A stretch of 64,000 nucleotides of DNA from Desulfonatronovibrio hydrogenovorans DSM 9292 (lineage in GTDB: Bacteria; Desulfobacterota; Desulfovibrionia; Desulfovibrionales; Desulfonatronovibrionaceae). Made by a program: the position numbers and the translations under genes. The stretch lies in assembly GCF_000686525.1 (NCBI RefSeq), contig NZ_JMKT01000011.1:62001-126000 (forward strand), written 5' to 3'. The notes beneath the pieces are model-generated. The model saw only the letters and a list, made by a program, of their open reading frames with translations, did not search any database and had not been told where the DNA came from. Below are positions 1 to 62,995 of this stretch, in pieces; positions within the stretch are counted from its first letter, which is position 1, and each line of letters begins with the position of its first letter.

Positions 1-695
1 TAAACAAGCATTTTGACCAGGAAAAGTTTTTTCAGGCCGTGGAGCTGGTGAGCAAACTGAGGTTTAATAACCTCAAGCTGTATTTTATCCTGGGTCTGCC
101 CGGTGAAAAACCAGATGATTTTCAGGAACTGGAATGCTTTTTAAAAAGGCTTGACCAGGCCAGAACTCAAGGCATGGGCTCCAGAAAAAAAGGCGTGGAT
201 CTGATCAGCATCAGCGCATCCATGTTTGTGCCCAAACCATGGACCCCCATGCAGTGGGCACCCATGGACCAGGAGGATGTCTTTCTGGAGAAGGCCGGGA
301 AGTTCAGGCAGCTGTGTGCACCGTACAAAGGGTTGAAATTTAACTTTGAAAGGCCTTTCATGGCCAGGATTCAGGGACTGCTGTCCAGGGGAGGGCCGGA
401 TGTCCATGAGCTGCTGCTGGATACCGCTGAAAACAAAAATGACTGGAGAAAAGGTTTAAAGAACTGGTCAGGCAGCATTAAAGAGTACCTTGATCAGGAA
501 TTGCCACTGGAAACATCCTTTCCCTGGGAAGTTATGGACATGGGCATTGACAGAAGTTATCTGGAAAAGGAATGGCAAAAGTACAGGAAATCCCTGCTGA
601 CCAGACCGTGTCCGGAATCAGGTTGCCAGACATGCCGGAGGTGCGGTATGCAAATATTGCTGGAGGAGCATGAACATGGCCAGAATCTGTTTTAA
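1..695 (+). CDS. Radical SAM protein, C-terminal part (5' end outside window)
   Basis: The reading frame is open from base 3, so the gene starts before the window. The visible part begins near the end of the radical SAM barrel (YFILGLPGE, a typical late-barrel strand) and includes SVSPFVPKP-like ISASMFVPKPWTP. It ends in a Cys-rich tail (CPESGCQTCRRCG). This pattern matches the B12-binding/radical SAM family of uncharacterised anaerobic proteins (TIGR03960-like), but the CxxxCxxC cluster that would prove the class lies outside the window. The substrate is unknown. The 3' end overlaps the start of a small ubiquitin-fold gene, so the two are probably co-transcribed. Confidence 0.8.
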   Translation, partial: NKHFDQEKFFQAVELVSKLRFNNLKLYFILGLPGEKPDDFQELECFLKRLDQARTQGMGSRKKGVDLISISASMFVPKPWTPMQWAPMDQEDVFLEKAGKFRQLCAPYKGLKFNFERPFMARIQGLLSRGGPDVHELLLDTAENKNDWRKGLKNWSGSIKEYLDQELPLETSFPWEVMDMGIDRSYLEKEWQKYRKSLLTRPCPESGCQTCRRCGMQILLEEHEHGQNLF

Positions 696-44995: not shown

Positions 44996-45263
44996 TCCGG
45001 TGGCTTATATAAGACATCTGCTATTGTCTTTGGCATTTCTCTTAATATGTTCTCCTGTCTTTGCAGAAGGATTATGTGAGTCTGGAGACACCGAGTGGGA
45101 GGCCATAGTTCAAGAATACCCGGATGATAAGGAGCTATTTGAACTTTATACCCTTCGTAACAATCTATGTGATCAAGTAGAAAATAGAGAGATTTCCTAC
45201 TCTGAAGCAGTGGTGATCTTTGAAATTGAACGCGGAATTCTCGTTGAAAAGAGACGACAGTAA
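44961..45263 (+). CDS. Hypothetical secreted protein
   Basis: 100 residues. An N-terminal hydrophobic segment ending LLLSLAFLLICSPVFAEG has a clear signal peptidase site (VFA-EG). The mature part is short, acidic and has two Cys (GLCESGD and NNLCDQVE) that could pair. It overlaps the previous gene by 35 nt and is followed after 4 nt by the SLOG-like gene. Function unknown. Confidence 0.5.
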   Translation: MTESRKAVQFSNPVAYIRHLLLSLAFLLICSPVFAEGLCESGDTEWEAIVQEYPDDKELFELYTLRNNLCDQVENREISYSEAVVIFEIERGILVEKRRQ

Positions 45264-45267
45264 CCCC

Positions 45268-45777
45268 ATGCAAGAACGCAGAGTTTTCGAAAAGATCGTC
45301 TCAGGTGGTCAGACCGGAGCAGACCAGGGAGCCCTTGATGCAGCCCTGGAACTTGGTCATCCCTGTGGTGGCTGGTGTCCAAAAGGCAGAAAATCTGAAC
45401 TGGGGCATATACCAGACAAGTATCCGGTAATTGAACATGACTCATCCAACTACGTTGCTCGGACAGAAGCAAATGTTGTTGATTCTGACGGGACCCTGAT
45501 ATTTACTTATGGAGAACCAACAGGTGGAACCAGGCTCACCGTTGATCTGGTCAAAAAACATAAAAGGCCCTACTATATTTTTGATGTTGAGACTGAGTCC
45601 TTAAACCTTACCCCAGAAATCATTTGGAAATGGGGTCTTGATAGTAACGTCTTCGTCTTGAATGTAGCTGGGCCTAGGGAAAGCAAGAATCCTGGGACTC
45701 AGATCCTGGTCAAGGCCGTAATGCTCAGGATACTGGAACACGCTGAAAAATGTTACCCGGTTGTTGCGGGAACATAG
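45268..45777 (+). CDS. Putative molybdenum carrier / SLOG-fold protein
   Basis: 169 residues from ATG 45268. The N-terminus KIVSGGQTGADQGALDAALELG with GGWCPKGRKSE is diagnostic of the 'putative molybdenum carrier' family, a Rossmann-like (SLOG/lysine-decarboxylase-like) fold that binds nucleotide-type ligands. EPTGGTRLTVDLVKKHKRPYYI is the second conserved block. The carrier name comes from weak early evidence; SLOG relatives act in nucleotide signalling and phage defence, so a defence role inside this prophage is possible but unproven. Confidence 0.8.
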   Translation: MQERRVFEKIVSGGQTGADQGALDAALELGHPCGGWCPKGRKSELGHIPDKYPVIEHDSSNYVARTEANVVDSDGTLIFTYGEPTGGTRLTVDLVKKHKRPYYIFDVETESLNLTPEIIWKWGLDSNVFVLNVAGPRESKNPGTQILVKAVMLRILEHAEKCYPVVAGT

Positions 45778-45896: not shown

Positions 45897-46106
45897 TCAA
45901 CCGGTCTGTCCAAGAAATATTTGAACGGCCGCGATGGCCCCATCTGAACCTTTAAATGCCCCGATTGCGCTGCCAGAAAAATCCGGTCTTAAAATATTTT
46001 CGCGGTGCCCAGGGCTGTCCATCCACTGCTGGACTAGGGACCTCAACATTACCAAGCAATATCTACCCAAGGCTATTTGGAAAGAAATTCTTATACCTGT
46101 GCGCAA
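45897..46106 (-). pseudogene. 3' fragment of a CAP (SCP/PR1) domain gene
   Basis: The last 45 residues contain the end of a CAP domain: LVQQWMDSPGHRENILRPDF followed by GSAIGAFKGSDGAIAAVQIFLGQ. Upstream, only IALGRY resembles the preceding GENIAxG motif, and the catalytic-His N-terminal half is missing. The 5' end runs into the end of the tail gene at 46091. It looks like a remnant of an older secreted or tail-associated CAP protein, cut off when the present tail gene end was formed. Confidence 0.6.
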
Positions 46107-48286
46107 AACAATAAGTCTGGCTTAGTAATTCCAGAAATCGCAAGGCTTTCAAGTAAAGATAAATTTTCTTGAGAATATATCCTCAATCGCCCGCTGGTCA
46201 GATCCCAATAGTAAACATGATCACCCCTAGCGGCTACCGGCCTCCAATGGTTACGCCAAGTCGGTATAATAAATGAATCAGCATTAGGCAAAGATATAGT
46301 AGAGCTGACTGTCATATCAGTTAGGGTTACCTTGTATAAACTATTTGTGAGTTCATAAAGTTGCCCAAGGTGATTTTCTCTACAATAAAGTAAAAATAAA
46401 TTGTCACCCCTGCCAAGAGCAGCATGAAAAAAACCATGCCGATCAGAACTTGGTGCGCTGGCTACTCGGCTGACAATTGCCATACTTTCTGGATTTATTT
46501 TGCATAAATAACCATAAGTGGAAGCTTGCGGGGGTGTTATATTACTTGCAATAACAGCCCTAGACGGGACATAAAAATAACCACCATGATACAATAAAGG
46601 ACCACGAGTATGCCCATACAGCCCATTTGCAGCCCATCTTCCAGAATTGGAAGATATTAAACCGCCCCCCATGCTAAATTTATAAAGCCTTATGTTGTCA
46701 AGGGCGTACACATGCGATCCATCTGTTTCCAAATCCCATACCTCAGAGTGCTCAAAAAGCTTATTAACTAAGGTGGTACCTGAATATAAATATGTGTGTG
46801 AATTGCTATCAGCGATTCCAAGAATTAATATTGGATCACCTGCCTTCAGTGTGATCCCCCGAATTTGAAAATTTTGAATAGTAGTGCTCCAAATCAAATC
46901 CATTGATGCCGCATCAAAAATCCAAACATAACTTATTGTATGCCAGGTGGAGCTTTCCGTCCAATACCGCCAAGCGCAAAAAGCTATTTTCCCATCAGCA
47001 AAAGACGGTTGCCCAAACCTCAAGCTATCTGTTCCTACTGGTGGAGGAGTGCCCGTAATTCCAGTATCAAATGATTTCTTAATTTCTAATTCAGGGGATA
47101 CAATGTGAATATACTTCGGCGAAGCAACCGTGGACCCCCGATCTGAAATATACAAATCCAACACGCAAGGATGCGGCGCACTAGAAAACCCTATAATTTT
47201 CGGATCATCCCATGTTTGATTATCGAATTGAATGACAACATCGTCACCAACCTCAAACGCAATATGATCACAATCCATATAATCAAAGGGGACGTCATCA
47301 AGCCGGCGGGCGTTAATTTCGAAACGATTATATCTCAAAATGCGGAAATTAGTTCCGGGCTGTCTACCCAGTGGGGTGTTAGGGGATTGATCGAGATGAA
47401 ATACTCCCCGATCTGTAAAAACAACAGCCCAAGCATGATCAACATCTTGATTTCCACGAATTGGCCCTGATCCCAGCTTACCAATGGCTAATCCCATAGC
47501 AGATGCAGGAATACCCTGGTTGGCTAACAATTGTATTTTAGTTAAAGCATAGTCTTCACAATCCCCATAGCCAGGAAGATTAACCACATCCCATCGATCA
47601 ACAACCTCACGCTGATATGTAACATGGGTATTGACCAACGTATTGATTGCAACAATAGACTCCCACCATGTTCCATAAGAAATACTAGCTCGTTCTGAAA
47701 ATTCTTGGCAAACTGGATGTCCAGGATACCGGTTACAAAAGTCCTGAACCTGCTCCAGATGAAAGTCATCCATTGGCGAAGGTTCTCCAATATCACATTC
47801 TGGCAAGTCATCTGGTTCCAAATTAGACATTATAACAGGGTCAAACCCCGGCCGTATGCAGACACTTGCTGAATTTTTTTCAGGATTAATGCTAATTATC
47901 TTACCAGTCCTAAATGTCGGCTTCCACTTTTGCCAACCAGGTTGAAGTGATGCATTAAAAAAGAAACCACTGGCTGATTGTAGACTAGGGGGTTGTTGCT
48001 GCCCATCTTGGGATGACCAATAAGGGCCTGGAGCGCCTAAAGGCCCATTTTCAAATCCAGGCTTAATTAAATAAGTCCAAGCTTGTTGCCCTTGTCGATA
48101 CTCCAGACCAATTCCAGCTATTTCAATAGTCCCAACAATGGTCCCTGGTTCAATATCCTCAGTATAATCAACACACCAGGCAGATGTGGTTTTTCCATCT
48201 TTGTCGTGGCCATCTGCATCTTTTACAATATAAGTGATAGTGTACGCGCCTTGACCATGATTACCTTCAATCCGTGCTTTGCCCAT
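46091..48286 (-). CDS. Phage tail protein with transglutaminase-like cysteine peptidase domain
   Basis: 731 residues from ATG 48286. Residues about 170-305 form a bacterial transglutaminase-like (BTLCP-type) domain: catalytic Cys243 in GYGDCEDYALTK, His284 in DVDHAWAVVF, Asp299 in FHLDQSP. The N-terminal part is beta-rich. The C-terminal 400 residues look like repeated beta-strands of a propeller or fibre (VYALDNIRLYKFSM, GYFYVPSRAVIAS, DHVYYWDLTSGRLRIYS). It is the last structural gene, just after tail tip and fibre genes, so it probably sits at the tail end, cutting or crosslinking cell-wall or surface protein. Start is 2 nt after the previous stop. Confidence 0.75.
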   Translation of the reverse strand: MGKARIEGNHGQGAYTITYIVKDADGHDKDGKTTSAWCVDYTEDIEPGTIVGTIEIAGIGLEYRQGQQAWTYLIKPGFENGPLGAPGPYWSSQDGQQQPPSLQSASGFFFNASLQPGWQKWKPTFRTGKIISINPEKNSASVCIRPGFDPVIMSNLEPDDLPECDIGEPSPMDDFHLEQVQDFCNRYPGHPVCQEFSERASISYGTWWESIVAINTLVNTHVTYQREVVDRWDVVNLPGYGDCEDYALTKIQLLANQGIPASAMGLAIGKLGSGPIRGNQDVDHAWAVVFTDRGVFHLDQSPNTPLGRQPGTNFRILRYNRFEINARRLDDVPFDYMDCDHIAFEVGDDVVIQFDNQTWDDPKIIGFSSAPHPCVLDLYISDRGSTVASPKYIHIVSPELEIKKSFDTGITGTPPPVGTDSLRFGQPSFADGKIAFCAWRYWTESSTWHTISYVWIFDAASMDLIWSTTIQNFQIRGITLKAGDPILILGIADSNSHTYLYSGTTLVNKLFEHSEVWDLETDGSHVYALDNIRLYKFSMGGGLISSNSGRWAANGLYGHTRGPLLYHGGYFYVPSRAVIASNITPPQASTYGYLCKINPESMAIVSRVASAPSSDRHGFFHAALGRGDNLFLLYCRENHLGQLYELTNSLYKVTLTDMTVSSTISLPNADSFIIPTWRNHWRPVAARGDHVYYWDLTSGRLRIYSQENLSLLESLAISGITKPDLLFCAQV

Positions 48287-48287
48287 T

Positions 48288-48944
48288 TCATCTTTCCATA
48301 AGGTCCATAAAAATATTTCTTGTGGAAACATTCAAAGTAATCATGCCTACGATTAACTTATCACCATCTGCAGGACCATATCTGGCAACATCCCCTGGAC
48401 GAATAAAAAAAGAAGGTTCGCATCGGATACGCCGTTTACCAGTCCCTTGTTTAGAGTAACTTGTGACACCCGTTACATCTACAACCTTACTGGTAGTTGT
48501 GGTCTGGACCATATAGCCCACGAGTGTCCCCGATCCAGATCGGCCACCCAAGTCATAGCGGAAAGACTCCAGCTTTGAATTGATAAGCTCTTCAACAATA
48601 TCCTGCCCAGCAATGGTCCTTACTCCAGAATAAATGACTAAATCTCCTCCTACCCTGGATTCAATCGCATCAATCAAATTTTGGGTAATTCCAGGCACGA
48701 CCACATTGACATAGGTTGGCTGGCCATCCCTCATCCGGGCATGGAGAGAAGAGATTGATAATGGTAACTCATTAAGGCGACACAAGTAGATTATTTGAGC
48801 CACAAAAGCAGATGATATTGCCCATTCCCGTGCCGGTTTATAATAATAAAGCCGGTACTTGGCCCCTGTAACTTCAAAAGAAAGCTCAGTATAGCCAGCG
48901 CCCTCGTTTAGGGCATGACTATTTAGCTGTCCTAAATTAAGCAT
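48288..48944 (-). CDS. Phage tail tip protein
   Basis: 218 residues. Begins LNLGQLNSHALNEG; the middle has ISSLHARMRDGQPTYVNVVVPG; the end PSFFIRPGDVARYG..GDKLIVGMITLNVS resembles phage proteins with a late beta-domain where position-dependent values are mapped. No named family recognised. It overlaps the upstream fibre gene by one base and is followed by the transglutaminase-like tail gene. Role inferred from position. Confidence 0.55.
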   Translation of the reverse strand: MLNLGQLNSHALNEGAGYTELSFEVTGAKYRLYYYKPAREWAISSAFVAQIIYLCRLNELPLSISSLHARMRDGQPTYVNVVVPGITQNLIDAIESRVGGDLVIYSGVRTIAGQDIVEELINSKLESFRYDLGGRSGSGTLVGYMVQTTTTSKVVDVTGVTSYSKQGTGKRRIRCEPSFFIRPGDVARYGPADGDKLIVGMITLNVSTRNIFMDLMER

Positions 48945-50305
48945 TACTCACCCGCCATCAGATAACCAATTATAATTACTCGGCAATTAAGATTTCCAGT
49001 CCCAGCCGTCGCCACAGATACTCTGATACTATCTACCCCATTTATTTCTGGAGTAAACATTTGCCTTTGTTGGGCCTGATCAACGGTGACCGCCGATGAA
49101 GTCAATATATTATCAACATCAGGACCATCACCTGTACCCACTTGAATTTCAAAAGGCCCAGCTGGGTCTGTGGCAGAAGTCACGATCAAATCAATTCTAT
49201 CAATATAAAATTCAGCCCCCGTGGGAATTTCAATTTCTGCGTGATCTTGATCATCAGTTAAATCAATTACCCCTGTGGCCAGCGTCATTACGGGGGCGGC
49301 CCGGTGACGGCTGGCCAAATCATCTTCATGCAAATCCCCCGGCAGAGCATTTGCAGCGGGTTGACCAGGGATCATTGCCAAATGAGAAAAATGAGGGGAA
49401 GTAGCCATGGCCTGATACCCCAAGACTACACCAAAATTGGCATAATTCTGCGTCTTGGCTCCAAGAGATACGCCGGCAATTGATGCCATTTCTGTTCCTG
49501 CACCAATAATAATTCCAAAATCACCGAAGTAGCCTTTCGCCTGATCACCAATAGTAATGGCACGTTCGCCCTGACTAGCCGCTTCCCGGCCCAAAGCAAT
49601 CCCCCCCTGAGCATGTGCAGCGGAGTTAACCCCGACGACAATAGTATCTGGGGCGTAGCCCTCCCCCCGAACGCAGATAGCATCCGGTTCCCATGAACCG
49701 GCACCAAGGCCAATGGCAATTACCCTTGGTCCACCTGCACTAGAATCCCCAATAGCAATCCCATCTTCATCCGCAGCATTAGAAAAATCCCCAATAGCAA
49801 TCCCACGATCAGCGCCAACATAACCATTGCCAATAACAACGGCATTATCAGCCTGCGCATTTGCCCCTTGACCAAGGGCCAAGCTTGCAGGTCCAGAGCT
49901 GAAAGCCCCTTGGCCAATAGCCACGGCCCCCATGCCAAGAGCCACCCCTAAAATTGCAATTGTATTATCAGCAAAACCACTAAATAAACTTTGTAACAAA
50001 TAACGGGTTACTCGCAATTCCAAAACGGTATTTGCCGGCCACTCTAAAGACTCTGTACCGTCCCGCCCTCTAAGAATGGTTGCCGTGGCTGTCCCCGAAT
50101 CCCAATCTACCACTTCAACGATCTCATGTATCTCGTCAGTTATATTTGCAACCGTCAATAATATATGCATTTGCCCATCAACCACATTTTCCAAGGCGTC
50201 ACTTAAAGTATCTGAAATTTCCGTCAGCATAATACCGGTATTACTATCTGTAATAGACTCAGCTAATTCTGCCTTGGCATTATTTGCCAATATATAACTT
50301 GCCAT
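48944..50305 (-). CDS. Tail fibre with YadA-head-like (Hep_Hag) repeats
   Basis: 453 residues. Residues 1-110 look like an attachment region. About residues 115-300 carry repeated strands of the type AxAIGxGA, e.g. AVAIGQGAFSSGPASLALGQGANAQ, GIAIGDFSNAADEDGIAIGD and GVSLGAKTQNYANFGVVLG. These build the trimeric left-handed beta-roll of YadA-type adhesin heads. A C-terminal domain (about 335-453) ends in a beta-rich lectin-like part. Position in the tail block makes it a receptor-binding fibre. It overlaps its neighbours by one base on each side. Confidence 0.75.
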   Translation of the reverse strand: MASYILANNAKAELAESITDSNTGIMLTEISDTLSDALENVVDGQMHILLTVANITDEIHEIVEVVDWDSGTATATILRGRDGTESLEWPANTVLELRVTRYLLQSLFSGFADNTIAILGVALGMGAVAIGQGAFSSGPASLALGQGANAQADNAVVIGNGYVGADRGIAIGDFSNAADEDGIAIGDSSAGGPRVIAIGLGAGSWEPDAICVRGEGYAPDTIVVGVNSAAHAQGGIALGREAASQGERAITIGDQAKGYFGDFGIIIGAGTEMASIAGVSLGAKTQNYANFGVVLGYQAMATSPHFSHLAMIPGQPAANALPGDLHEDDLASRHRAAPVMTLATGVIDLTDDQDHAEIEIPTGAEFYIDRIDLIVTSATDPAGPFEIQVGTGDGPDVDNILTSSAVTVDQAQQRQMFTPEINGVDSIRVSVATAGTGNLNCRVIIIGYLMAGE

Positions 50306-50718
50306 TATTCCACTACCTCCAATTCAATTATTCCAGGTGCTGCCCATTTTATCACAAAGTCATAGCCAGTAATCGTTATCGTATTACCCTCAGAAAATGC
50401 TATGTATCCAATCAGGCTCAAACCTGAGTACAACACACCATAAGCAAAAGTTGCCTGGAGTGCGGAAAAGACTGTGTCCGAAGGTTGCCATTGATACTTG
50501 TTGCCGGATTGTTTGATTGTGCCGTCTATGATTTTACCCCCGGCCTCGTATCCTGGGCTGGGGTTAATCTCATGCGCCGACAGATCAGACCATTCACTAT
50601 GCTCCAGGTCCGGCACATAAGTATTAGCCATTAGCGCCAATTTGGCATTTGCAACGCCTAAACCAGTCAATAAAGGTAACTCTTTTGCGCTCCGATACAG
50701 GATTAAATTCATTATCAT
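50305..50718 (-). CDS. Phage tail protein (unassigned)
   Basis: 137 residues, mixed alpha/beta: MNLILYRSAKELPLLTGLGVANAKLALMANTYVPDLEHSEW, then YLATFAYGVLYSGLSLIGYIAF. I recognise no family; phage proteins of this kind in the position between tape measure and fibre form the tail tip. It overlaps both neighbours (ATGA type). Confidence 0.5.
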   Translation of the reverse strand: MIMNLILYRSAKELPLLTGLGVANAKLALMANTYVPDLEHSEWSDLSAHEINPSPGYEAGGKIIDGTIKQSGNKYQWQPSDTVFSALQATFAYGVLYSGLSLIGYIAFSEGNTITITGYDFVIKWAAPGIIELEVVE

Positions 50719-51080
50719 GCGCCCACCTTCCTAATGACAGCCAAGGTCAAAACTAGATCAAGCCCTTGCCTTTGCCATGACTGTAATGATATTTCAAAGT
50801 AACCCGCAGGAGTGCTGGCAAAAATCCGTTGATACACCAGAGATAAATGCTCAACCAAAGAAATTGCCGAGGGATTGTAAACTGTCCGTATTTGCCATGT
50901 TTGATCAGACACCGTATACCCTGTATCGTATAATGACACTCCACCGTCCAAAGTTGGGGTTCTGGTTTGCCTGCGTTGCCCGCCAAAAAAGTCGTCAATG
51001 CTTTCAGGGCGCAAATACAGAAAGCCTGCGCCATGCGGATCAAACAAAGGTGCATTTAGAGCCATTACTATTCCCATCAT
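50715..51080 (-). CDS. Phage minor tail protein (unassigned)
   Basis: 121 residues, beta-rich: TLDGGVSLYDTGYTVSDQTWQIR, SAISLVEHLSLVYQRI, LDLVLTLAVIRKVG. Position right after the tape measure matches the minor tail M slot of lambda-like phages, but sequence similarity is not clear to me. It overlaps the tape measure end. Confidence 0.5.
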   Translation of the reverse strand: MMGIVMALNAPLFDPHGAGFLYLRPESIDDFFGGQRRQTRTPTLDGGVSLYDTGYTVSDQTWQIRTVYNPSAISLVEHLSLVYQRIFASTPAGYFEISLQSWQRQGLDLVLTLAVIRKVGA

Positions 51081-53965
51081 TCAACCCCTAATAAAAAATT
51101 TTGATATTCTTCGCTTGCCCTGGCCTGGACTGCCCCCAGGATCTCGAACATTATCATTTCAAGATGAGGCTGAAGCCCATCTCCAGATACAGTGATAAGA
51201 GGTTCCCCAGATTGCATCCGTCGTTTTCGTATTTCCATAAATTCCATCTCTGCCCAAGACATCTTTTCTTGTATTTCCAAACCACGCTCTTGAATATCCA
51301 TTTGGCGCTCTATGTACCGTTGAATATCATACGACCAAATTCCAGCTTCTGACATTTGTCCTATATTAGAAAAAATAGACTCAAGAACTCCCCCAGCAGT
51401 TTCAACGCTGGTTGATACTCCATCCATGATCGCTTCAACTCTTTTCGCATTGGCCTCAACCTCGGCAATCTCAAGTTTAGCTTGCCATTCGACTTTAGCC
51501 TGAATGGTATCATGGTAATTGGATATCATTGTATCAAGAACTCCCATGACCGCCTTAAATTCATCTGTTTCCAAGCCAGACAATTCTGGCTCAATCTCAA
51601 CGGATCGTGGACGACTTGCATACTCAAGATCATTTTCCAAAATCTCAATGCTGCCATCATCAGATACGTTGATAATATAAGGAGGGATATTTTGGGTTTG
51701 TCCCTTGATCCTTTCGGTTGTTTCTGTGATTTCTTGCTCTGTCTTGGATAGGGCCACCTGATCATGGATTGCCCGCAATTCCAAAATCTGTTCACCAGTT
51801 AAGCCCTCAACATCATGCCCCAATTCAATTAGTTCCTTTTTAGCCTCAACTATATCAGCTTCAAATTTTATCTTTTGTTTCTCAGGCACCCGGGTGCGGA
51901 TGATCTGCATAGCTTCTTCAAAGCTTAAAATATCCGCTTCCGCACTAAGCCGGATTACATCCGCGTCGGAAAGTCCGGACAGGTCATGTCCTAAACCCTC
52001 TAGCTGGTCCCGCAGTCCACCGAGGTCGTAGGTAAAATCGCCTATATTGTCGGCAATGGCATTGACCAGGTTGGCAAAAGACTCTGCTTCCTTGTTTGCT
52101 GCCTCTTGTTTACCGGTAAAATCAAGAATCCGATCAGCCCAACCATATATGCTTTGTGCCGCTTTGCCGACGGCTGGTACATGCTCATTGAACAGGGTTC
52201 CTGTGATATGACCGGCATAATAAGCCAGGCCAATCAAACCAGCTTTGCCAGCAGCACTCCCAATGGCGGCTTGGGTTGCTGCTCCAAGTCCACCCATGGC
52301 CGTGGCTGCGCTTCCTAGTCCGGTAATGAGATTGACAAGGCGCTGAGCTGCAATAACCTTGAGCAATACAGACATGCCATCCAAGGCGCCTGCAAAACTG
52401 GAAACAAAACCAGCAGCCACATTAATAACTTTGCCAAGCTGGAGGAAGTTGCCAATGGTTTCTGTTGTACTAGAATCAAGATCTCCAAATCCTTCTACTA
52501 AGCTGCCCAGCCACCCAGCCCATTTTTGCCAGCTTTCAATGATACTTGAGCTGATTTCAGTCAACGCTGCCCCAGCGTTAACAATTCGCTGCATTGCCTG
52601 AGCCAGCCCCTCTGGAGTATCAAGATCAACTTGGCCAAAAAAAGCGTCGAGCACTCCAGCCGTATTATCAGCCAGATCCCGGATTGACCGGGCAAGCCTG
52701 GAAAAATCCATCTGATTTAAAGCTTCTGGAAGATTGCGGGCAATGTTATCAAAGGTGGCGGTCAGATCACCTGCGATTTCACGGAGTACGTCAAAGACAT
52801 CGTCAAAGGCCCCGGCCTGGACAGATTGCTGTAAAGCTTTGAAGATATCAGAGATACCACTGACCATATCGCCGTACTCAGATATCAACTCATCTCCAAC
52901 AGCGACAAAAGTCAGTCGAACATTATTGGCCAACTGCTGATTGGCGTAACTGACATCCCCAACCATCTTTTCAAACGCGTCTGCCGTGACCCCAGCCGCG
53001 TCTTGCATCTTGCCAATGTTATCCAGAAACCTGTCTCCGCCATCCTGGCCAAACATTGCCAGCACACCGGTCAAGCCCCGGACATTGCTGAATAGCTGGG
53101 ACACAGCATCAACATTGCCATCTGTAGCCTCCCATACGTCCAGGAGTACTCCTTCAAGTCCTTTGGATGCCAAGGCAGAGGCATTAAACTCAATGCCGAG
53201 TTCGGCAGCGTAATTTGATGCCTGCTGGGTTGGATTAATAATTGACTGGATCGCACCCCGGATTGCAGTCATGGCTTCACTGGTCGGCATGCCCTGGGCT
53301 GTCAGGGAGGCAATGGCCGCACTCACGGTTTCTATGGGAACACCAGCTGCTCCAGCCATAGAAGATACCTGGGATAGGGACTGGGCAAGTTCAGGAATGG
53401 TTGTCAGGCCTTGGCGAACGGTTTGGAACAGGACATCGGAATAACGACCAGCCTCGTCAGTGCTGGCCCCGTATGCGTTCATCACGGATTCCAGCAACTT
53501 GGTTGTGCTGTACAAATCTGCCCGGCCTGCAACAGCAAGCTGTTCGGCCTGGGCTATGTATTTCAGGGCATCTCCATATTCAATGCCTGCGCTCAAAGCT
53601 GTATAAATGGATTTATTTATGTCCTCGATGGACTGGGTAGATGTATTGGCATATTCGCGGATCTGCATCCGGAACTGATCGACTCCGTCACCCGTGTCAT
53701 CAATCAAGGTGGCGATTTCACGGAACTGGCTGTCAAAATCCGCAGCAGCATTTATGGATAGAGCAAGACCACCGATGGCCAAAGCACCCAGGGCAGTCTG
53801 GAGCTTGAGGATCCGGTCGTGCATGTTGGCCAGGGGTTGAGTTGCACTTTGAACACCACCGGCAAGCTTGTCCATTTCCCGGGAAATATTGCGGATTACT
53901 GTTCCGGTATTATCCACTCCCTGGAACACAATCTGAACAACTCGCTCAAGGTCCCTGCTCATCAT
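51077..53965 (-). CDS. Phage tail tape measure protein
   Basis: 962 residues, the longest gene here. The N-terminal part (MSRDLERVVQIVFQGVDNTGTVIRNISREMDKLAGG) and residues 85-330 (LYSTTKLLESVMNAYG, TAQGMPTSEAMTAIRGAIQSIINP) match the TP901-type tape measure core. Hydrophobic segments near 555-600 are usual. Coiled coils fill the C-terminal third. It sets tail length; by the usual rule of about 0.15 nm per residue, the tail would be roughly 140 nm. Starts ATGATG, overlapping the stop of the frameshifted chaperone. Confidence 0.92.
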   Translation of the reverse strand: MMSRDLERVVQIVFQGVDNTGTVIRNISREMDKLAGGVQSATQPLANMHDRILKLQTALGALAIGGLALSINAAADFDSQFREIATLIDDTGDGVDQFRMQIREYANTSTQSIEDINKSIYTALSAGIEYGDALKYIAQAEQLAVAGRADLYSTTKLLESVMNAYGASTDEAGRYSDVLFQTVRQGLTTIPELAQSLSQVSSMAGAAGVPIETVSAAIASLTAQGMPTSEAMTAIRGAIQSIINPTQQASNYAAELGIEFNASALASKGLEGVLLDVWEATDGNVDAVSQLFSNVRGLTGVLAMFGQDGGDRFLDNIGKMQDAAGVTADAFEKMVGDVSYANQQLANNVRLTFVAVGDELISEYGDMVSGISDIFKALQQSVQAGAFDDVFDVLREIAGDLTATFDNIARNLPEALNQMDFSRLARSIRDLADNTAGVLDAFFGQVDLDTPEGLAQAMQRIVNAGAALTEISSSIIESWQKWAGWLGSLVEGFGDLDSSTTETIGNFLQLGKVINVAAGFVSSFAGALDGMSVLLKVIAAQRLVNLITGLGSAATAMGGLGAATQAAIGSAAGKAGLIGLAYYAGHITGTLFNEHVPAVGKAAQSIYGWADRILDFTGKQEAANKEAESFANLVNAIADNIGDFTYDLGGLRDQLEGLGHDLSGLSDADVIRLSAEADILSFEEAMQIIRTRVPEKQKIKFEADIVEAKKELIELGHDVEGLTGEQILELRAIHDQVALSKTEQEITETTERIKGQTQNIPPYIINVSDDGSIEILENDLEYASRPRSVEIEPELSGLETDEFKAVMGVLDTMISNYHDTIQAKVEWQAKLEIAEVEANAKRVEAIMDGVSTSVETAGGVLESIFSNIGQMSEAGIWSYDIQRYIERQMDIQERGLEIQEKMSWAEMEFMEIRKRRMQSGEPLITVSGDGLQPHLEMIMFEILGAVQARASEEYQNFLLGVE

Positions 53966-57604: not shown

Positions 57605-57906
57605 TTGACTTCCTCCTGCCATAATTGGATCATGTCTTTATCCTGGTTATGTTTTTCTATGATCTCCAGCAGATCAATTGCATAATGCAGCAGGTCACTG
57701 TTGGTTTCGCCATCAAATTCAAGGGGATGACGCTTGACAAGCCAGGCAGCTGGAGGGGTCATGTAGATATACTCAGTCTTGGTAACTGTCTGGATCTGTG
57801 GCTTGCCGCAGCCGCTCAACAATAGGAGCAGGCAAAGGATCAAGAGCCCATTTCCGGGCTTCCAGTTCCAAACTATGCATGTCCTGTCTGAGTGTCTGAT
57901 ACTCAT
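57601..57906 (-). CDS. Rz1-like outer-membrane spanin lipoprotein
   Basis: 101 residues. A hydrophobic start with lipobox LLSGC, then mature Gly-Lys-Pro-Gln and Pro-containing sequence (YIYMTPPAAWLVKRHP). It starts inside the Rz-like gene in another frame (134-nt overlap) and extends past it, the typical Rz/Rz1 nesting. The lipidated spanin joins the inner-membrane spanin to fuse the membranes at lysis. Confidence 0.75.
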   Translation of the reverse strand: MSIRHSDRTCIVWNWKPGNGLLILCLLLLLSGCGKPQIQTVTKTEYIYMTPPAAWLVKRHPLEFDGETNSDLLHYAIDLLEIIEKHNQDKDMIQLWQEEVK

Positions 57907-58168
57907 GTTTTAACTCCTGAACCTGCAATTCACGCAGAGCAAATAGCCTTTCAATGCGCTCTCGCTCAGCTTCGATTTCAGATATCCTTTGTTCCATGTC
58001 TTTAAGATCCTGTATCTGCTGTATGATAATCTGGGCCTGTCTACCGGTCTCTCTTAGGGCGTCTTCGAAGCGCCACCAGACAAAACCGGCTACACCGGCT
58101 AGTAAGAAAACCATAATCAAAGGAATGATGATTTTTTTAGATTTAAATATGGCGAAAAGGCCCATCAT
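57773..58168 (-). CDS. Rz-like inner-membrane spanin
   Basis: 131 residues. One N-terminal membrane segment (IIIPLIMVFLLAGVAGFVWW) is followed by a long coiled coil (about residues 38-115: ETGRQAQIIIQQIQDLKDMEQRI, EAERERIERLFALRELQVQEL). This is the inner spanin form. Its 3' part overlaps the Rz1-like gene. Confidence 0.75.
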   Translation of the reverse strand: MMGLFAIFKSKKIIIPLIMVFLLAGVAGFVWWRFEDALRETGRQAQIIIQQIQDLKDMEQRISEIEAERERIERLFALRELQVQELKHEYQTLRQDMHSLELEARKWALDPLPAPIVERLRQATDPDSYQD

Positions 58169-59062: not shown

Positions 59063-61288
59063 TTATGCAGTGCCGTCGTTCAGGACCAGGGTTCTGAATT
59101 CCATGGCTCCGACGCCAAAGAAGTGGCGGATTTTCCATTCAATGGCATCACTGGTGAATGCTTCCCGTTCCATGATCTGGGGCTGTTCGTATCCATCCAG
59201 ATAAGCCACCTCAAAAGTGTCAAACTGGGCAGGGTCGGCGATTATGTACCATCCAAGGCCGGAAAAGACGTCCAAAAGGTACGGTTCGACTATGGATACA
59301 AACTTGCCCTGCATGGGGTTGAGCACTCCGGAATTCTTATCGTCAGTTACACTGGCCGCACTTCTGAGCAGGACATCAGTGACCATCTCTTTTTTGGGCG
59401 ATACAAGCAGGAACCTGGGCTCGATATTCAGTCTGGATCCCTTAAGGCCTTTCTGGGCGCGCATGAGCTGGCGGGCTGCATCCAGATTCTCAGCGGTAAT
59501 GGCTCTGCCAGTTTGCAGCAGGTTTTTATGGACCGTGGTTTTGAAAAGCTGCCTGTTGTCGCTCATGGTCGGGCCATGATTGTTGCTGCCACTGGTAAGC
59601 AGGCTGTACACCAGCTCGTTTTCTTTTCTGCGGGCTGCTGAGCCAAGCAGCCTGGGCAGCCTGGTAAAGGCACGCAGGTCATCATTGACAATGGATTCAA
59701 AGGTCAGCTTGACGATTTTTCCATATTTGAACACCCTGTATTTTTCTGCGGAGTCTTTGAGATCCCCATACTTGTATTCCCCGGCCTCGCTGACCAGATC
59801 CAGGTCGGGGGCTTCAGACAAGGACACATTGTACATGTCCTTGAAATCTGTTGCCGGGACCCTGTTGGTCCAGGCAGGATAGGTGACCGGAATCTCCTCA
59901 TACGATTTCTGCAGGGTCTTGTTGGCAGCATCCCGGAATATCTCTGGAAAGTCGCTGGTGGTCATGGTCATCTGCCTGCTGTTGAACACGAAGTCCGCAA
60001 CCATGCGCCGGGAGTGCAGGCTGGAAACATCGTGGCCAGACCTCATCAGAGACTCACGGATTATCTGGGCTATCTCGTAGCCCATGAGCTGTTTTGCTCC
60101 GGCAGTGGGTTTTTCAATGTGCAGGCCAGCGCGCATAACCAGGGCATCGACAGCCGCGGACTTGAATTTCTCGTTTTCGGTTTCACCCGACTGGATGCGC
60201 CCGGCACCAATGGGCGGGTTGGTTTCTGCCATCTTGGCAAAGATTTTTTCCCTGGCCGCATCAAGGGTGGTATCGTTTTCAATAAGCTCTTCGGCAAAGG
60301 CCTCCTTAAGGCCTGCCAGGCGAACGGCCTGACGAATTTCTTTTTGGCGGGTCTTTTCAGCCTTTCTTTCCTCGGAGCGGATCTTTTTTTGATCATCGCT
60401 GGAAAGATCGCCTCTTGCCAAAAGGTCCTTCATGAACTGCAGGGCCTGTTCATCGGTCGCATCCTTGGCCAGGCCCTTGGCCTCCAACAGTTTTCTGAGT
60501 TCTGGATTCATTTTCTCTTCCTCCGTTTTTATGTTGTTAACGCGGGCGCTGGCCGCACGCTGTAACGTCTGCGGTGTGGCTTTTCTGTCTGGAGCCTTCC
60601 CTGGAGCCCGGTCAAAAATTGATAGGTCAAACATTGCCTGTGCTGCCTGAGTATCAGGATTATTGCCGTCAAGCTGGTCAGCAAATCCTGCCTCGATGGC
60701 CTCTAACCCAGTGAACCATGTTTCCTGGTGCATCCAGCCCCGGATCTGGCCCAGGTCCTTACCGGAACGCTCAGCATAAATTTCAGACATAACTGTCTCA
60801 ATCTTGTCCAAAAGGTCAGCTTCTTTGCGCAGATCCTCGGCCGTACCGATCATTAAAGCCCAAGGGTCGTGGATCATAAAGAATGCCGACCTGGGCATAA
60901 TGATGGTCTGGCCGACCATGGCAATGATCGAGGCCATACTGGCGGCCAGGCCGTCTATGTAGACATTGATTTTTGCAGAATGGTTCTTAAGCCAGTTGTA
61001 AATAGCGGTACCTTCAAACACAGATCCGCCAGGGCTGTTGATATGCAGATTGATTTCGGTCACGTCTTTAGGCACTGCATCAACAATGTCCTGAGCTTCG
61101 ATCCATGGCCAGCCAATGACGTCATAGATGTACAGATCAACGGTCTGTCCGTCGGACCGGGCAATGTGCTGGCCGAAATTCTTGGGAGCATCCGGGTCTT
61201 TGCGCAAGGCTATGATTTTTTCGGCTATGCTCTGCTTCCTTTCCGCATTAGCCTGGATTTTTGCTATCTTATTAATGGGAAAAGGCAT
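59063..61288 (-). CDS. Prohead protease / scaffold / major capsid protein fusion
   Basis: 741 residues. Residues 1-230 are a ClpP-like protease: NLHINSPGGSVFEGTAIYNWL, catalytic Ser in GLAASMASIIAM, His in MIHDPWAL. Residues about 255-370 are charged and helical (scaffold-like: QFMKDLLARGDLSSDDQKKIRSEERKAEKTRQKEIRQ). Residues about 375-741 are an HK97-fold capsid protein (AGLHIEKPTAGAKQ, FRDAANKTLQKSYEEIPVTYPAW). The family of fused protease and capsid is known in tailed phages. An internal start with a good ribosome site lies at the scaffold boundary. It follows the portal gene directly. Confidence 0.88.
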   Translation of the reverse strand: MPFPINKIAKIQANAERKQSIAEKIIALRKDPDAPKNFGQHIARSDGQTVDLYIYDVIGWPWIEAQDIVDAVPKDVTEINLHINSPGGSVFEGTAIYNWLKNHSAKINVYIDGLAASMASIIAMVGQTIIMPRSAFFMIHDPWALMIGTAEDLRKEADLLDKIETVMSEIYAERSGKDLGQIRGWMHQETWFTGLEAIEAGFADQLDGNNPDTQAAQAMFDLSIFDRAPGKAPDRKATPQTLQRAASARVNNIKTEEEKMNPELRKLLEAKGLAKDATDEQALQFMKDLLARGDLSSDDQKKIRSEERKAEKTRQKEIRQAVRLAGLKEAFAEELIENDTTLDAAREKIFAKMAETNPPIGAGRIQSGETENEKFKSAAVDALVMRAGLHIEKPTAGAKQLMGYEIAQIIRESLMRSGHDVSSLHSRRMVADFVFNSRQMTMTTSDFPEIFRDAANKTLQKSYEEIPVTYPAWTNRVPATDFKDMYNVSLSEAPDLDLVSEAGEYKYGDLKDSAEKYRVFKYGKIVKLTFESIVNDDLRAFTRLPRLLGSAARRKENELVYSLLTSGSNNHGPTMSDNRQLFKTTVHKNLLQTGRAITAENLDAARQLMRAQKGLKGSRLNIEPRFLLVSPKKEMVTDVLLRSAASVTDDKNSGVLNPMQGKFVSIVEPYLLDVFSGLGWYIIADPAQFDTFEVAYLDGYEQPQIMEREAFTSDAIEWKIRHFFGVGAMEFRTLVLNDGTA
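60509..60524 (-). promoter_or_regulatory. Internal ribosome binding site within the protease-capsid fusion gene
   Basis: GGAGG at 60520-60524 (minus strand) is 8 nt before in-frame ATG 60511. Translation from here gives 482 residues: scaffold plus capsid without the protease, similar in logic to the lambda C/Nu3 nested start. Confidence 0.6.
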
Positions 61289-61290
61289 GG

Positions 61291-62799
61291 CTATTCCTCC
61301 GTAGCGTTAAGTTTTTTCTCTTTAAGAATGGCCTCTTCCTCGGCCAGCTCTTCTATTTCCTCGTCCCAGTCCAATCCTCGCTCAGCTGCCAGACGGCGGC
61401 GGTTGGTAATCTTCATCCCGAGTTCAAGTTGTGCTCCCCGGGCATCTTTTTGGGGGTCGATCCATGGCCAGCCAGGGTTCTGCCACTGGACAGGGACCCT
61501 TTGCGGCAGGCTGCCCAGCATCTGGGCCAAGCGGGCATAGTCTATCCAAGACTTCCAGACCCAGTTGTTGGGGTGTCGGTTCAGAAAAAACTGCATTTTG
61601 CGGTAGCCGCGCCGTTCTTCCAGAATCGCCTGTCTAGCGCTGGAGTATGTTGACCCTTCATAGTCGTTGGAGAAATTTTCATAAGAAAGTCCTGACCCGG
61701 TGGATGCGGACTTAAGGCTGGTCTTGGTGAACGGTTCGTAGGTCTGACCGGGGCGGTTGTACTGTGCGGCGCTGATCTTCATGCCTATGGGCAAAACATC
61801 GATGCGTCCCGGCTCCATATATTTGGGAATATCTGCAATGCTGGGTGTGTCCTGGTCGGTGCCTGCAAGGGGGTGGGTCATCTGATGTTCTGCATAGGGC
61901 GACTCAATGAAGATGCCGAAGGCCGCGGCCAGGCGGGCGGCTATGCGCTCAGAGCTCTGGTACTCGCTGAAGTCACGCATTTCCATGATGATGGATGCCA
62001 GCCAGGACACACCTCGGCCCTGGGAGGCCCGGCGGCGGTGAAAGACATGTTTGATTTCAGTAGCTGGAATGCGAACAGATTCGTTGAAAGTGGATCCCCA
62101 GAGACAGTCACCTGGATGTTCCTTAAACATCCAGTAAGCCACGGGGCGTCCTTGAAGGTTATATTCAATGCCATTTTTGACCTTGTTTCCGCTGCTCCCT
62201 GTCTCGTTTTTACTGCTGTCAAGAAAATCTGTTTCCAGGATCTCAAGGCCAAGAGGGACCAACCCTTTTTCCCGCAGATCCTCGTCCCAGAAGCGATGCA
62301 GAAAGAACTCTCCCTCAATCCATGAATGCCGGACAAAGAGTTCCTGAAGGTCGTAAAAGTTGACCAGATCGTCCTCTGCCCAAAGCTGGAACCCCTCTTC
62401 GATACGGTCATTATGTGCCTTATGCAGCTTTCCGTCTGATGTTTTCAGGCGGGCCTGGGGAAAGATTCCGGTATAAACCACATTGTTGCAGATTTTATTG
62501 ATAGCTCCGGAAACATGGCTAGAGTTGCGTTCCAGATCACGAGCCCGGGCCAGAAGTCTTGTTCGGTCACGAGCCAGGACAGCGTCGGCTGATTTGTTTG
62601 GAGGGTTCCAGCCTTGATCCGGACCTTTTGGCGAAGCTCCGGTATAATGGGAAAGGACAGCTCTGGAGTGCAGGAAATTCAGTGCGGCTCTGGGGGCAAA
62701 CAGGCCGATGGCCTTGGCAACATACCTGGACCAGGGATCAGTCTTGAGCCGGGGATTGCTTTGCCTGGGATCAACCACGATGTCCCCCGAAGATGACAT
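61291..62799 (-). CDS. Phage portal protein (lambda B family)
   Basis: About 502 residues from ATG 62799 (a TTG 62832 start is possible). Motifs are RDLERNSSHVSGAINKICNNVVYTGI, AEDDLVNFYDLQELFVRHSWIEGEFFLHRF, EIKHVFHRRRASQGRGVSWLASIIMEM and GSGLSYENFSNDYEGSTYSSARQAILEERRGYRKMQ, all of the lambda-type portal. It forms the dodecameric ring for DNA packaging. Upstream terminase is beyond the window or separated by the HicAB genes. Confidence 0.93.
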   Translation of the reverse strand: MSSSGDIVVDPRQSNPRLKTDPWSRYVAKAIGLFAPRAALNFLHSRAVLSHYTGASPKGPDQGWNPPNKSADAVLARDRTRLLARARDLERNSSHVSGAINKICNNVVYTGIFPQARLKTSDGKLHKAHNDRIEEGFQLWAEDDLVNFYDLQELFVRHSWIEGEFFLHRFWDEDLREKGLVPLGLEILETDFLDSSKNETGSSGNKVKNGIEYNLQGRPVAYWMFKEHPGDCLWGSTFNESVRIPATEIKHVFHRRRASQGRGVSWLASIIMEMRDFSEYQSSERIAARLAAAFGIFIESPYAEHQMTHPLAGTDQDTPSIADIPKYMEPGRIDVLPIGMKISAAQYNRPGQTYEPFTKTSLKSASTGSGLSYENFSNDYEGSTYSSARQAILEERRGYRKMQFFLNRHPNNWVWKSWIDYARLAQMLGSLPQRVPVQWQNPGWPWIDPQKDARGAQLELGMKITNRRRLAAERGLDWDEEIEELAEEEAILKEKKLNATEE

Positions 62800-62995
62800 G
62801 TCCGGTATTGATCCGGCCTTTGCGCTGAACAATGGCTATTCTGGCTTCCAGCTCTGTTATTTTTTTTTCAATTTCGGCCAGGTCCGGTCGGCGTAATCGC
62901 CTGGAGCCGATAGCATACTCCTGCCCAATGAGGATTTTTTCACGGGCTGCCCGGTACAGGGCAAGGTCGTTTTGAAGGGTGGTAAGGTTTGCCAT
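62771..62995 (-). CDS. gpW-like head-tail joining protein
   Basis: 74 residues. LTTLQNDLALYRAAREKILIGQEYAIGSRRLRRPDLAEIEKKITELEARI is the pattern of small phage proteins encoded just before portal genes, lambda gpW or similar (DUF6148-like). It overlaps the portal start by 29 nt. Confidence 0.75.
   Translation of the reverse strand: MANLTTLQNDLALYRAAREKILIGQEYAIGSRRLRRPDLAEIEKKITELEARIAIVQRKGRINTGHVIFGGHRG

Follow-up and report, generated by a model that had tools for sequence, protein, structure and literature searches.

A LapG-type cysteine peptidase domain inserted in a tail-tip protein of a Desulfonatronovibrio hydrogenovorans prophage and its putative role at phage entry

The stretch of DNA analysed here (hereafter referred to as the window) comprises 64,000 nucleotides of Desulfonatronovibrio hydrogenovorans DSM 9292 (contig NZ_JMKT01000011.1, positions 62,001 to 126,000) and carries the structural operon of a prophage on the minus strand, to which all the coordinates given below refer unless mentioned otherwise. 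The operon includes the genes for the portal (61291-62832), for a single 741-aa protein in which a ClpP-like protease is fused to the major capsid protein (59063-61288), and for decoration and head-tail joining proteins, while terminase and primase are encoded further right on the contig. An Rz-like spanin gene (57773-58168) and an NlpC/P60 gene (57013-57483) are located between the head and the tail genes, so that lysis genes seem to be embedded in the structural operon.

The tail module contains the gene for a tape measure protein of 962 aa (51077..53965; PhageMin_Tail, E 4e-33; PHROG tape measure), followed by five genes coding for proteins of 121, 137, 453, 218 and 731 aa. The 121-aa tail protein (50715..51080), conserved at its position directly after the tape measure gene, is 37% identical to its counterpart in the Marinobacter phage PS3, and the 137-aa protein (50305..50718) of the tail module corresponds to phrog_644. 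The 453-aa protein (48944..50305) is fibre-like and carries YadA head repeats (Pfam YadA_head, E 6e-9; PHROG tail fiber protein), a repeat of the trimeric bacterial adhesins. The 218-aa tail protein (48288..48944) has a conserved region that, in most related loci, comes before the gene for the tail-tip scaffold. The last tail gene (46091..48286) encodes the 731-aa protein that is the subject of this study, a tail-tip scaffold protein with an inserted domain of the bacterial transglutaminase-like cysteine peptidase (BTLCP) type. No sheath was recognised in the prophage operon of the window, which suggests a siphovirus-like tail. The prophage is bordered at its tail end by a cpYpsA SLOG-family gene on the plus strand (45220-45777); this gene matches phrog_289, as does a gene near the terminase genes (L109:11293-11907). 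The order of the tape measure gene, the 121-aa gene, the 218-aa gene and the scaffold gene is maintained in about 50 viral and genomic loci, and this gene order places the putative enzyme in the tail module, as is expected of a tail-associated hydrolase.

The reading frame of the scaffold gene is open already from 48331, which would yield a form of 746 aa. The start at 48286 is backed by the N-termini of the homologues (MSKGEI..., MSYALI..., MGKG.I...), in agreement with the 731-residue protein described in the first-pass annotation. Because the 218-aa gene and the 731-aa gene overlap and PS3 is one gene short in this region, a frameshift between them was also considered. It was rejected, since in PS3 and the other relatives the counterpart of the 218-aa protein is the final part of the gene before.

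The protein begins with a beta region (residues 1-102; 47981..48286), from which the helical hairpin present near the N-terminus of most relatives is missing, as it is in the locus L065. An OB-type domain follows in two halves. The first half (residues 103-146; 47849..47980) matches positions 2-43 of the OB profile at residues 103-144 and includes the strands 125-134 and 139-144, and the second half (residues 327-376; 47159..47308) matches positions 54-107 at residues 323-375. The two halves are separated by a gap of 178 residues that corresponds to an inserted block (about residues 147-326; 47309..47848), the OB domain being unbroken in relatives. The remainder of the protein (residues 377-731; 46091..47158) is a C-terminal domain that found no match in any related ORF and is possibly a beta-propeller; residues 396-512 resemble propellers in an AlphaFold model that is mostly of low confidence in this region. 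Kelch-like repeats terminate several of the proteins with BTLCP at the same site (L066 by a weak Pfam match; L127, L128 and L145 by visual inspection), and the C-terminus of the window protein may likewise be kelch-like. No beta-helix was found in the window protein, whose C-terminal domain is modelled with low confidence.

The inserted block contains a match to Peptidase_C93 (BTLCP) at residues 181-301 (47384..47746). This is the best Pfam family for the protein, with a score of 48.6 bits against the curated cut-off of 27 and an E-value of 9.8e-13 (9.5e-13 on the 731-aa form). The predicted catalytic residues Cys243 (47558..47560, within GDCEDY), His284 (47435..47437) and Asp299 (47390..47392) occur in the order expected for C93 and their positions were verified. 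When 31 related domains are aligned, which have a low overall identity, the GDCED motif and the His never vary (31 of 31) and the Asp is present in 30, being replaced by Glu in L067. A phmmer search with the full protein found no match in the PDB, but the profile of the 31 domains identified the LapG proteins of Pseudomonas fluorescens (E 5e-18) and Legionella (E 3e-12).

Structure prediction supports the assignment. The C93 core of the AlphaFold model has pLDDT values mostly of 88-98; Cys243 opens a helix (243-256), His284 lies in a strand (282-291) and Asp299 just past another (294-298), so that the order of the three residues along the predicted secondary structure, with the Cys at a helix start and the His and Asp at two strands, is the usual one. 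A Foldseek search with the 731-aa model gave no significant match, but with VIA-align residues 205-324 superpose on LapG with an rmsd of 2.6 over 113 residues (Z 11.4). LapG structures top the structural list (Z 11.4 and 10.7), and transglutaminases, TglA and factor XIII among them, follow at Z 7-9. In the LapG homologue DvhG, the Asp and Glu flanking the catalytic Cys (D316/C317/E318) are required for calcium (PMC13090378). Asp242 and Glu244 match DvhG D316 and E318 by sequence comparison; the calcium-site residues of the window domain are therefore intact and calcium binding is predicted. The Cys-His-Asp domain of the BTLCP type proposed in the first-pass annotation is thus borne out by family score, verified residues and fold.

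That the domain is embedded in a tail protein was likewise confirmed, since homologues exist in which the same protein is without it. Homologues in the equivalent position downstream of the tape measure gene are encoded by the Marinobacter phage PS3 (ATN93331) and by the viral genome MW202621 (UOF79461); their two conserved scaffold blocks, PGWQK...G.I and VPI.YM.C...GD.V...IGF, are contiguous in these proteins but split by the BTLCP domain in the window. The span from Gly128 to Val332 (window numbering) amounts to 35-43 residues in nearly all the members without a domain at this site and to 196-216 residues in the window and five other clearly aligned members. An OB-region profile, for which solely members that carry no insert in this position were used, matched in one piece in 59 entries (some of them duplicate contigs) and was split, just before L..VPI.YM.C, in the window and in ten further intact viral loci (L063, L064, L065, L068, L069, L070, L117, L127, L128 and L145), in which a BTLCP block of 160-180 residues interrupts the OB domain at one loop. 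The L063 protein ends soon after the insert. The loop tail ...SSAQ.L.INQ is kept before the insert in several loci and is lost in the window. Taken together, the sequence comparisons indicate that the BTLCP domain is an insertion in one loop of a conserved OB-type scaffold domain. The location at the fibre end of the operon, as described earlier, therefore holds in that the gene is at the distal end of the tail operon, but the domain resides in a scaffold loop and is not part of a fibre.

Other arrangements were also observed. The domain follows an unbroken OB domain in L067, L071 and L157, and occurs in more distant proteins of similar make-up in L076, L078 and L081. Three loci (L066, L097 and L121) have the same BTLCP order with the frame broken near the insert, which may reflect an error in sequencing, decay or recoding. 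In the host's order, one genome (G069) has two near-identical prophage tail genes ending in BTLCP (L110 and L111), one of them frame-broken, and the archaeal Methanosarcina virus MetMV has a C93-like stretch (L009:6001-6375, E 3e-4).

The nature of the scaffold was examined in the relative L019, which is without the insert and was modelled at a mean pLDDT of 92. Its OB region is most similar to the spike domains of E217, Mu, R2 pyocin, Pam3, SN Orf41, VgrG and P2 gpV, which top the list at Z 7.8-8.6. Kinship with the tail-spike OB folds is plausible but not proven, because unrelated OB folds reach Z values of up to 7.9. The alignments of the R2 pyocin spike and of VgrG to the window model run across the insert (110..368 and 121..370). 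PDB searches with sequence profiles made from the scaffold and from its 218-aa neighbour gave no convincing relative, the scaffold matches being mostly coiled coils.

A search of viral contigs with the whole protein retrieved nothing, half of the pattern peptides being located in the unique C-terminal region, and a search with the conserved scaffold blocks retrieved 46 viral and 7 genomic loci. The loci L063-L103 and L113-L189 were fetched by BTLCP motifs or lie close to them, and the counts given here are hence not frequencies. In this sample, enriched for C93, C93 is the only bacterial enzyme family detected by Pfam in 51 members of the tail family. Phylogenetic analysis groups the tail-borne BTLCP domains apart from the sampled stand-alone ones (support 98/94). 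The window domain clusters with the domains from L067 and L157 (100/99), both located after the OB domain, and has therefore probably moved. A single ancestral insertion is contradicted by the domain tree, in which a common clade for the domains at the same site is rejected (p 2e-10). The scaffold tree, with its poor resolution, only leans against such an insertion, with four changes needed for the same-site members and p values of 0.066 and 0.051 for a single clade. The simplest account of these trees is a tail-adapted BTLCP lineage that shifted between positions and between phages, and the retention of the triad while the domain changes sites would fit selection on the domain as an enzyme. 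Homologues lacking the catalytic residues had been named as evidence against the proposal; most homologues indeed lack the whole domain, but nearly all that bear it keep the triad, a pattern that suggests an accessory enzyme rather than a dead one. The domain is not needed for infection in general, as most tail relatives are without it.

The characterised members of MEROPS C93 provide the closest comparison. LapG and DvhG are calcium-dependent proteases that cut an adhesin at di-alanine sites (PMC13090378). They share with the window domain the fold, the Cys-His-Asp triad and the GDCED motif with its calcium-binding Asp and Glu; however, they are periplasmic proteases of the host encoded in an operon with a regulator and an adhesin, whereas the window domain lies inside a phage tail protein and has no such partners, unlike the free-standing exported protease of the LapG/LapD/LapA system. 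HvyA of Caulobacter, a BTLCP protein whose active site affects the capsule and phage sensitivity (PMC4241560), is likened here by its description and belongs to the same family, but is also a periplasmic protein of the host. Stand-alone BTLCP genes likewise place C93 on viral contigs. They are reported to be the commonest kind of auxiliary gene in river viruses (PMC11283719), were met in the present analysis, and code for proteins of 120-250 aa that separate from the tail-borne domains in the above tree.

The first-pass annotation had raised LapA-like adhesins as possible substrates. In the host genome (98.9% complete) the LapA retention module NF033682 is absent, although LapA control genomes matched it weakly and the modules of the Desulfovibrio type differ (PMC13090378). 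No VCBS repeat and no second C93 protein, including a LapG of its own, were found in the host genome besides the tail protein. The LapD-type receptor PF16448 is absent as well, as it is from every control genome. These absences argue, weakly in view of the weak controls, against a LapA adhesin in particular. The host has Omp85 proteins and is therefore Gram-negative, in line with the Rz-like spanin.

Where a phage tail tip bears an enzyme, this is usually a wall hydrolase or a polysaccharide depolymerase. T4 gp5 has, in addition to a beta-helix spike, a lysozyme that comes after the OB domain. Like T4 gp5 and other tail-associated lysins, the window protein combines an enzyme domain with an OB-containing tail-tip protein, but its C93 domain lies inside the OB loop and no beta-helix was found. 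The main rival to proteolysis of an envelope protein is that the domain cuts peptide or isopeptide bonds of peptidoglycan as the tail crosses the periplasm, in a role like that of the T4 gp5 lysozyme or an NlpC/P60 tail protein. The match of the OB-type domain to the spikes of tails and injection systems, on one of which the T4 lysozyme rides, and the Gram-negative host would suit such a wall enzyme, and C93 has relatives (C71, PeiW/PeiP) that are viral cell-wall isopeptidases (PMC10318531). However, the characterised proteins nearest to the domain in both sequence and fold are the protein-cutting LapG enzymes, the prophage encodes NlpC/P60 separately, next to its spanin gene, and Pfam recognised a wall hydrolase in this tail protein in none of the relatives. 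The absence of known wall hydrolases from this slot in the 51 members favours a substrate specific to C93. We regard a wall substrate, suggested by the analogy with the T4 gp5 lysozyme and the C71 isopeptidases, as rather unlikely.

Two further roles appear improbable. Given its place within a structural protein and a superfamily that includes transglutaminases, the domain might mature the phage's own tail proteins during assembly or cross-link them by transamidation; but the domain is missing from most tail relatives that share these neighbouring genes, and its closest kin are hydrolases. Alternatively, it could be a catalytically idle module that recognises a receptor or an adhesin via the BTLCP fold, in keeping with a C-terminal region and neighbours that look like binding modules (YadA head repeats), a possibility that sits poorly with the near-complete conservation of the triad in domains of such low identity and that we consider equally remote.

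Related phages share the same insertion, from which it follows that the phage probably cuts something on the cell surface during infection. The gene product is the final tail-tip protein in a prophage of the siphovirus type, and the best explanation for its inserted domain is proteolysis of an envelope protein: the protease would be carried by the assembled tail and would meet the cell envelope at adsorption or penetration. There, with calcium and its Cys-His-Asp triad, it would cut an exposed envelope protein (an adhesin, a receptor or a periplasmic anchor), and the cleavage would clear or open a path for the tail. The analysis demonstrates the domain with its residues, its insertion, the recurrence of the insertion and the syntenic place in the tail module; we infer the presence of the domain in the virion, its activity, its timing and the protein nature of its substrate, and give this explanation an even chance. 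It has to be set against a host that seems to be without the long adhesins cut by LapG, and against the action of the characterised LapG and HvyA in the periplasm. A broader proposal, that a mobile LapG-type protease hops between the OB loop and the site behind the OB domain in siphophage tail tips and cuts host surface proteins, phages having taken over an adhesin-shedding enzyme, is tentative and falls somewhat short of an even chance.

Viral BTLCP auxiliary genes (PMC11283719) and a link of the family to phage sensitivity (PMC4241560) are already known; the new element is a BTLCP domain on a tail tip, for which no earlier report was found in the literature searched, most subscription journals being outside its coverage. 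The domain is an instance from nature of an enzyme built into the OB domain of a tail tip and shifted between sites, and the known calcium-dependent reporter assay for LapG/DvhG offers a ready test of the tail-tip protease. A LapG-type protease on the tail tip, if true, would mean an entry step aimed at protein and would explain one use of the BTLCP genes, which environmental viruses commonly carry and which have no known role.
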